Assembly (NCBI GenBank): GCA_030445745.1
Contig: JASUTE010000003.1
Location: 62,001-126,000, forward strand
Origin: Candidatus Cloacimonadota bacterium
Lineage (GTDB): Bacteria > Cloacimonadota > Cloacimonadia > Cloacimonadales > TCS61
Direction: 5' to 3'
DNA: 64,000 nt
A model generated the notes under the pieces. The model had not been told where the DNA came from. It searched no databases and saw only the letters and a list, made by a program, of their open reading frames with translations. How positions within the stretch are numbered: the stretch's first letter is position 1; every line of letters starts with the position of its first letter. Of the stretch, positions 19,636-23,964 are shown one piece after another. Both the position numbers and the translations under genes were made by a program.

Positions 19636-20821
19636 AACAATTAAAGATTTCTACAATTTTATCTTTGAAACCCGAGATTTTAAAAGAAAACTTCTGAGAA
19701 AAAAATTAAATGCTGAAAAAATAAAAAAATCTGAGATAAAAAAATTGGAAAAATATGTGGTGAAATTGCTGAAAATTCCTCTTGGAGCAGGTAATCATGT
19801 TTTGGAATATGCAGAGGGCAAGAAAACTAATTTGGATCTGTTCTATGAGATAGATGAATTGACCAAAGATGTGATTTTTTTATCTGAAACCGAGAAAAAT
19901 TTCATGGATTATCTGAATAAAATGAATGAAGACTTTGAAAATGACGTAGAAACTGGTTTGGAATTTATATCAAAATCAGACATTACAACTTTTATTTCCG
20001 ATCGTGATGGAACGATTAATAACTATTGTGGTCGCTACAACTCTTCTATTCAATCGATCTACAATGCTAGTTATCTTATCGATATTGCCAAAATTTTGGA
20101 AAAACCAGTAATTCTTACTTCCGCACCACTGCAAAATACTGGGTTCTTAGATATGAACATAATGCCACCTAATTTTTTTGTAATTGCTGGTTCTAAAGGC
20201 AGAGAATTTACTTGGAAAAATCAATTTTACAAGATGCATTTGGATGAACAACAACAACAAAAATTAAATATTCTGAACCAGAAATTACAAGACTTAATAA
20301 ATAAGCCCTACTACGAAGTTTTCGCACTTATCGGTTCGGGGTTACAGTTTAAATTTGGTGAAACAACAATAGCGCGTCAAGATGTTTACAACTCGATTCC
20401 ACAACAGGATTCCCAAAACTTTTTGCAAAAAGTAGAAGAAATTGTTCGCAATATCGATCCTAAACAAGAATATTTTTCCATAATCGATACGGGCAAAGAT
20501 ATTGAAATAATTTTACATAAAAAAGATGCTGGAGTTTCTTCAGAATTCAGCAAGGGTGATGGAATCGAGTTTATTTCTAAAAAAATTGGCTTAAACTTAA
20601 CAGAAGCAGATAATCTGATATGTGGCGATACTGCTTCCGACCTGGCTATGCTGGAGTATGCTGAAAAGGTTACTCCAAATAATTATTCTATCTTTGTAAC
20701 TCAAGATGAAAAATTGAAAGAGAAAGTTGGGAAATTTGCAAGCAAAAATCTATTTGTAAGTTCACCCGATGCATTAGTAACTATTTTACATAAATACGCT
20801 TTGGAAAGGAGTACTAACTGA
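19625..20821 (+). CDS. HAD phosphatase, candidate trehalose-6-phosphatase
   Basis: The ATG at 19625 is preferred (398 residues), because GAGGAG lies five bases before it; a GTG 12 bases upstream has no site. Residues 1-115 are a charged helical extension with no match I recognise. The HAD core then shows intact motifs: ISDRDGTI near residue 126, LTSAP as motif II, SKGDGIEFI with the catalytic Lys, and CGDTASDLAML as motif IV. The gene overlaps the end of the synthase gene and the next gene's ATG (TGATG), so it belongs to the trehalose operon. Given the degenerate phosphatase domain of the neighbour, a trehalose-6-phosphatase role is a reasonable guess. A glucosyl-phosphate phosphatase of another kind is possible. 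Confidence 0.75.
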   Translation: MRIKTIKDFYNFIFETRDFKRKLLRKKLNAEKIKKSEIKKLEKYVVKLLKIPLGAGNHVLEYAEGKKTNLDLFYEIDELTKDVIFLSETEKNFMDYLNKMNEDFENDVETGLEFISKSDITTFISDRDGTINNYCGRYNSSIQSIYNASYLIDIAKILEKPVILTSAPLQNTGFLDMNIMPPNFFVIAGSKGREFTWKNQFYKMHLDEQQQQKLNILNQKLQDLINKPYYEVFALIGSGLQFKFGETTIARQDVYNSIPQQDSQNFLQKVEEIVRNIDPKQEYFSIIDTGKDIEIILHKKDAGVSSEFSKGDGIEFISKKIGLNLTEADNLICGDTASDLAMLEYAEKVTPNNYSIFVTQDEKLKEKVGKFASKNLFVSSPDALVTILHKYALERSTN

Positions 20822-23800: not shown

Positions 23801-23964
23801 TTATGATGTATTACAAACAGAATTGGCTTAATCTGAAAATTACTCAGCAGGAAATAGAGATTTCAATTAATAAATTTGGAGAAAAAATCTATTTCGAAGT
23901 AGAAAACCAAACATATGAATTCAAAAATAAGAAAAAAATTCAGATCAAATACAAGGCGACCTAA
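20821..23964 (+). CDS. Beta-phosphoglucomutase / GH65 disaccharide phosphorylase fusion
   Basis: A 1047-residue fusion. Residues 1-235 form a HAD beta-phosphoglucomutase: [10 protein letters not shown] with Asp9 and Asp11, [28 protein letters not shown] and [11 protein letters not shown]. Residues about 240-1035 are a GH65 enzyme with the (alpha/alpha)6 block [34 protein letters not shown], the catalytic Glu739 in [10 protein letters not shown], and the phosphate-site segment [11 protein letters not shown]. GH65 phosphorylases split alpha-glucosides with phosphate to beta-glucose-1-phosphate, and the mutase converts this to glucose-6-phosphate. The operon makes trehalose the obvious substrate; kojibiose, maltose or nigerose cannot be excluded from sequence alone. 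Its ATG overlaps the preceding TGA. Confidence 0.9.
   Translation: [1047 protein letters not shown]

Follow-up and report, generated by a model that had tools for sequence, protein, structure and literature searches.

A single-chain beta-phosphoglucomutase-GH65 protein of a Cloacimonadota bacterium and a putative route from glucose 6-phosphate to trehalose

Trehalose is a major stress protectant of bacteria. In Clostridioides difficile and Lactococcus lactis it is degraded by a phosphotransferase system (PTS) together with trePP and pgmB, a layout given without a phosphatase in the relevant passages of PMC10569727, and a section of a 2025 review (PMC12125463) counts trehalose 6-phosphate (T6P) phosphorylase under T6P degradation alone. 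GH65 phosphorylases also work in reverse, according to a passage of PMC8626586, another passage of which treats their phosphate-binding residues. The GH65 family has been divided by six positions (64, 392, 394, 402, 416, and 585), with predictions that were assayed (De Beul et al. 2021, PMC8537180). In that scheme T6P phosphorylases (EC 2.4.1.216, subgroup 22) carry the motif DQGQDE, trehalose phosphorylases (EC 2.4.1.64) TRIGPP, kojibiose phosphorylases EEAPxx, and maltose phosphorylases KV[MF]NES. A TRIGPP enzyme made trehalose, an EEAPWS enzyme acted as a kojibiose phosphorylase, and the DQGQDE enzyme of Caldithrix abyssi, predicted by its motif, was confirmed to make T6P from beta-glucose 1-phosphate (beta-G1P) and glucose 6-phosphate (G6P); several GH65 subgroups are still without an assayed member (PMC8537180). 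The entries of a further review (PMC6942593) include a 2011 study in which trePP and pgmB of L. lactis were used together with otsB. The Mycobacterium tuberculosis protein OtsB1 (1327 aa) has a function described as unknown in a passage of PMC11046441, and a 2025 text, in the part that deals with it (PMC12090744), describes it as lacking biochemical characterisation, as a member of the DosR regulon, and as detected solely in carbon-starved cells in one study. Here, we describe a locus whose phosphatase and fused phosphorylase-beta-phosphoglucomutase (bPGM) activities form, with a probability that we put at about 0.6, a functional unit able to make trehalose from G6P alone, the reversible step also returning T6P to G6P.

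The stretch analysed, hereafter the window, comprises 64,000 nucleotides from the draft genome of a Candidatus Cloacimonadota bacterium (2.04 Mb, 99.3% complete). An ORF on its + strand that starts with ATG (20821..23964) encodes a single chain of 1047 aa that combines a bPGM half with a GH65 half, the latter complete, as the earlier note had proposed and as the Pfam matches (far above chance level), TIGR02009, and the structure 8h5s bear out. The fused gene is the third of three overlapping + strand genes, after a T6P synthase-trehalose phosphatase (TPS-TPP) fusion of 730 aa (17443..19635) and a nematode-type T6P phosphatase (19625..20821). The TPS-TPP gene overlaps the phosphatase (ATG 19625) by 11 nt; the last letter of the phosphatase TGA (20819-20821) is also the first of the ATG that opens the fused gene, an overlap of 1 nt. 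The earlier note had spoken of a synthesis operon, which holds as gene order; promoter and terminator scans gave fewer sites than in shuffled sequence. Its further statement that the enzyme releasing beta-G1P is fused to the one using it, beside a T6P synthase, is supported. It had passed over the second, unrelated T6P phosphatase between the synthase and the fused gene as well as the degenerate phosphatase half of the synthase fusion. The closest named relative found for the fused protein is from a Candidatus Cloacimonadota MAG (68% identity in the best segment, nearly full length), and a contig scan with the window protein returned one locus (L002), on the same contig as G123:C73 by its gene coordinates. 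As the window genome has one GH65 gene, no GH65 enzyme other than the fused protein could supply it with beta-G1P. Throughout, the ORFs are mechanical calls and the genomes are mostly drafts. Elsewhere in the window, an ORF of 1085 aa just after a NUDIX gene (26041-29298) had no Pfam match at 1e-8, and a protein of 553 aa (61305-62966) carries a DUF4842 domain (152.8 bits).

The bPGM half (aa 1-245, 20821..21555), with a Pfam HAD hydrolase domain at aa 4-200, passed the NCBIfam beta-phosphoglucomutase family model TIGR02009 (162.1 against a cut-off of 153.35) and fell below the cut-off of the bPGM equivalog TIGR01990 (119.7 against 189.4). Its best solved match was 8h5s, labelled 'Beta-phosphoglucomutase' (180.6 bits) and presumably Rv3400 of M. 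tuberculosis, followed by 1lvh (94.7 bits), which we take to be the L. lactis enzyme. FDLDGV, the H in TAKQH, GKPNPD, and VED were kept in the window protein in an alignment of 23 bPGM regions, and we assume that these aspartate, histidine, lysine, and Glu-Asp motifs have the catalytic roles assigned to them. This half is predicted to interconvert beta-G1P and G6P. Two Rhodococcus single-chain proteins among the 23 have a degenerate bPGM that misses the cap and the GKP motif, so that some actinobacterial single chains may need a separate bPGM.

The architecture of the GH65 half is complete, each domain scoring above cut-off: the N-terminal domain (PF03636, 208 bits; aa 254-509, 21580..22347), the catalytic (alpha/alpha)6 barrel (PF03632, 403 bits; aa 563-962, 22507..23706), with the general acid E739 in MGPDE, and the C-terminal domain (PF03633; aa 976-1033). 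The six specificity positions were placed via an alignment to the kojibiose phosphorylase 3wiq, whose W391, E392, and T417 match the published numbering. They fall on D319 of the N-terminal domain (position 64), on Q648 (392), A650 (394), Q658 (402), and D672 (416) of the loop 3 region (22753..22866), and on E848 (585; 23362-23364). The resulting DQAQDE is identical to the T6P phosphorylase motif at five of the six positions, with Ala and not Gly at 394. The best solved match was 9lb6 (538.5 bits, against 410 for 3wiq), which reads D, Q, G, Q, D, and E at these positions in an alignment judged by eye and is labelled 'Trehalose-6-phosphate hydrolase', that is, as a hydrolase and not a phosphorylase. 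The putative phosphate-site motifs KQAD, HGST, and GIH, which would mark a phosphorylase as against the general base of a hydrolase and were placed by eye after the residues given in PMC8626586, are present, and T replaces the second S in most of the clade described below.

A tree of 38 GH65 domains, from which L001 had been dropped beforehand as a duplicate of the window, placed the window within a clade of 19 rows (support 100/100, stem 0.94); the tree includes no assayed T6P phosphorylase, and the T6P label of the clade rests on the published motif and the PDB label. All clade rows with six letters read [D/H/S]Q[G/A][Q/P]DE, the first letter missing in two rows, and the rows reading EEAPxx, KVxNES, and TRIAAH or RRIAAH fall outside. 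Among the TRI-type proteins, L027 and L046 stand in the tree outside the window clade and L103 was recognised by its motif (TRIAPP). Ala at 394 is shared by the window, G123, G190, G332, G435, and Legionella lytica, a set with no assayed enzyme. Residues common to 23 clade members and nearly absent in 20 others include H590, Q648, D672, Y835, R840, and E848; R840 and H590, which are also kept in five clade genomes added later, could be the holders of the 6-phosphate. In genome G194, a bPGM gene is followed by a TRI-type GH65 gene (TRIAAH; L044, 7538-10852), and an intact TPS-TPP is encoded elsewhere in the genome.

T6P is very probably the substrate of the GH65 half, and the fused protein is most likely a T6P phosphorylase joined to a bPGM. 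The GH65 half would catalyse T6P + Pi <=> beta-G1P + G6P. The earlier note had named trehalose as the substrate and glucose as a product, and had the cell recover energy from stored trehalose. The six positions, the tree, and the best solved relative all indicate T6P instead; the predicted products are then beta-G1P and G6P with no free glucose, and stored trehalose would be left untouched by the fused enzyme. Activity on a substrate other than trehalose, which the note had set against its own reading, is thus what the sequence predicts. Four other assignments of the GH65 half were rejected: trehalose phosphorylase, from the motif and a position outside the TRI-type part of the tree; kojibiose and maltose phosphorylase, ruled out by motif and tree; and kojibiose hydrolase, since NF053734, with a cut-off of 800, scored 204.7 bits and the motifs are of the phosphorylase type.

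The first gene of the window encodes a T6P synthase domain (GT20; PF00982, 558.8 bits; aa 3-461) followed by a trehalose-phosphatase domain (PF02358, 111.2 bits; aa 497-699, 18931..19539) that alignments show to be degenerate: DWDGT is kept, and SGR has become SQA, AEHG AANG, and GDDxTDE SDGLTGE. The motifs of a bifunctional OtsA-OtsB protein are incomplete in this domain, yet the whole protein passes NF011071 (909 bits). The TPP motifs are broken in six of the seven clade genomes with a TPS-TPP fusion: SGR, AEHG, and GDDxTDE are lost in the window and G123, and Asn stands instead of the nucleophile Asp in G056, G062, G085, and G411. The TPP of G305 is largely intact, and nine other clade genomes have a TPS without a TPP tail. 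Among the genomes with a TRI-type GH65, G194 and G384 (one genus) have a largely intact TPP in their TPS-TPP. TPP motif IV is intact in alignments of L081, L082, and L115. The separate phosphatase of the window consists of an N-terminal helical bundle and a HAD core (PF21141, 271 bits; PF18572, 40 bits). In the ORF list it begins with GTG 19613; GAGGAG precedes the ATG at 19625. Its best solved matches, 4ofz and 5e0o ('Trehalose-phosphatase'), are presumably of the nematode type; its product has the T6PP_N and T6PP_C domains and the HAD catalytic aspartates of that family, with DRDGT and GDTxSD intact in an alignment of four. The motifs of the trio phosphatase are kept in all those aligned. 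With the TPP degenerate and the trio phosphatase intact, it is probably the latter that does the work of T6P dephosphorylation in these cells.

A GH65 gene was found in 6 of 124 Cloacimonadota genomes. The order TPS-TPP, nematode-type phosphatase, bPGM-GH65 is that of the window and G123, and the order bPGM-OtsB, GH65, TPS-TPP that of G056, G062, and G085; the sixth genome (G059) has a distant GH65 beside a separate bPGM. The two layouts lie apart from each other within the clade of the tree, so this combination of activities arose on at least two occasions. Across the clade, a T6P phosphatase of one of two families is adjacent or fused in 20 of 28 loci (16 of 24 without four loci that came from a bPGM-OtsB query and are biased to the trio). 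These 20 are made up of four loci of the nematode type (window, G123, G190, G435), twelve bPGM-OtsB fusions (G056, G062, G085, G211, G239, G305, G304, G310, G502, Indioceanicola, Croceicoccus, Legionella lytica), one OtsB fragment at a contig end (G338), and three single chains (G411, Rhodococcus DK17 and WAY2). In G411, bPGM, OtsB, and GH65 make up one chain of 1332 aa (L110 5171-9166, - strand). Seven loci have no adjacent phosphatase: G302, whose draft has the GH65 gene broken into two ORFs, G416, G180, whose contig starts within the bPGM gene, Streptomyces BHT-5-2, Corynebacterium marinum, Rhodococcus BH4, and Lactiplantibacillus. The locus of G332 is cut by a contig edge. The phylum searches around G239 and G180 covered three genomes and one genome, respectively.

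Several loci had neighbours outside trehalose metabolism. The OtsB1-like proteins of Rhodococcus plasmids (L101 5728-9639, L102 5485-9543), with OtsB and GH65 regions present, are encoded near genes for universal stress proteins and response regulators. The plasmid pairs bPGM-OtsB/GH65 of Indioceanicola (L013 5896-9989) and Croceicoccus (L099 6959-10952) stand amid stress- and metal-related genes, and a T6P-type bPGM-GH65 on a plasmid of Corynebacterium marinum (L016 1504-8298) is flanked by genes for phosphoketolase and fructose bisphosphate aldolase.

The direction in which the trio runs was approached through the sources and sinks of T6P. TPS scored above cut-off in 16 of 19 clade genomes, so that the trio is unneeded for T6P in most of them, the window genome included. 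Among the 19 genomes searched, TPS was not detected in G190 and G211 (both 98% complete), and G332 (76% complete) had a match of 17.6 bits, below cut-off. PTS_EIIC was found in none of the 14 clade genomes tested and in 7 of 14 control genomes, making T6P from PTS import unlikely in those 14. Trehalase (PF01204, GH37) gave strong matches in G190 and G332 and weak ones in G211 and G416, and was absent in the other 15 of the 19 clade genomes, including that of the window. In G190 and G211, where the bPGM can supply beta-G1P, the phosphorylase is the only visible T6P maker and the phosphatase the only other visible T6P sink. A trio with neither TPS nor PTS favours the synthesis direction; this main argument is drawn from two lineages of draft genomes and from known families only.

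The GH65-bPGM protein could instead be a T6P phosphorylase that solely returns surplus T6P made by TPS to two G6P, the separate phosphatase being the ordinary second step of the TPS/TPP route in place of the degenerate TPP. L. lactis-type loci use the pair of T6P phosphorylase and bPGM catabolically, and no phosphatase was found adjacent in the Lactiplantibacillus locus. TPS is present in most of the clade and is one of the three overlapping genes of the window, and a TPP that is degenerate there and in five other clade genomes means that the normal route needs a replacement phosphatase. The extra phosphatase is thereby explained without reverse phosphorolysis, and for this reason recycling alone keeps some weight. 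We nevertheless consider it unlikely, since G190 and G211 have the trio and no visible supply of T6P to recycle, and since a phosphatase fused to bPGM, or the three-in-one chain of G411, is hardly sensible for breakdown.

That the GH65 half has a different alpha-glucoside, phosphorylated or charged, as its substrate, or that the branch with Ala at 394 has shifted in specificity so that T6P is only approximate, seems improbable: that branch has no assayed member and several GH65 subgroups are in the same position, but the motif departs at one position of six, and the surrounding genes act on T6P in three layouts with two unrelated phosphatase families. The cycle of the earlier note, in which a trehalose phosphorylase would split stored trehalose into beta-G1P and glucose and the bPGM recover G6P, draws on the fusion to bPGM, on the adjoining synthesis genes, and on the lack of a GH37 trehalase in the window genome, where another use of trehalose might be expected, but DQAQDE, the place of the TRI-type rows outside the clade, and a T6P enzyme as best solved match leave it very improbable.

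For synthesis from G6P, the reading that we prefer, we infer the activities, the direction of flow, and the coupling of the halves as follows. The bPGM half would convert G6P to beta-G1P, the GH65 half would join beta-G1P and a second G6P into T6P, and the separate phosphatase, by removing the phosphate irreversibly, would commit T6P to trehalose. The net route would be 2 G6P to T6P to trehalose, with no UDP-glucose, running alongside the synthase route, which uses UDP-glucose. The fusion would tie T6P reversibly and nucleotide-free to two G6P, and when G6P is scarce the phosphorylase step would send T6P back to G6P. Control of synthesis against breakdown could lie in this reversible chemistry combined with the irreversible phosphatase.

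More tentatively, and with slightly less than even confidence, we propose that several bacterial phyla have a natural nucleotide-free trehalose pathway of bPGM, GH65 T6P phosphorylase, and phosphatase. It would have come together on two or more occasions, with phosphatases of unrelated families; in some lineages it would be the sole T6P source in sight, and at times it would be carried by a single polypeptide. OtsB1 of the mycobacterial dormancy regulon would be one of these proteins or derived from one. Among open-licence papers on GH65, T6P phosphorylase, OtsB1, and trePP/pgmB/otsB, none was found to describe this trio making trehalose in nature. The engineered Lactococcus pathway is a known example of such a route from G6P. 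If the trio runs to synthesis, G6P could give cells a way to trehalose even when energy or UTP is scarce. Annotation would be mended too: clade GH65 proteins beside trehalose genes would not be trehalose phosphorylases, and the 'bifunctional' TPS-TPP proteins of such operons would probably be synthases only. For OtsB1, the T6P phosphorylase or trio reading gives a specific, testable function.

Compared with the described systems, the window protein resembles TrePP of L. lactis and CaGP of C. abyssi (EC 2.4.1.216) in five of six specificity positions, GH65 architecture, general acid, and, as placed by eye, phosphate-site motifs, and TrePP also in its pairing with a bPGM. It differs from both in having Ala at 394 and in forming one chain with a bPGM, for which 8h5s is the nearest structure, and from TrePP, which belongs to a PTS import operon, in its surroundings: it adjoins TPS and T6P phosphatase genes, and PTS_EIIC is absent from its genome. 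With trehalose phosphorylase (EC 2.4.1.64) it shares the GH65 family and a beta-G1P product, but not the TRIGPP motif, and TRI-type rows lie elsewhere in the tree. The separate phosphatase has the T6PP_N and T6PP_C domains and catalytic motifs of 4ofz and 5e0o; unlike these it is bacterial and stands in a trehalose operon. The closest parallel in activities is the engineered pathway of Carvalho et al. 2011, in which L. lactis trePP and pgmB with otsB reportedly led to the accumulation of trehalose: the same three activities were there making trehalose, whereas the trio described here recurs naturally, with two phosphatase families and one-chain fusions. OtsB1 (Rv2006), compared by description, is close in length to the G411 chain (1327 against 1332 aa), and its domain order, which we take to be HAD, trehalose phosphatase, and GH65, is like that of G411 and of Rhodococcus DK17 and WAY2.
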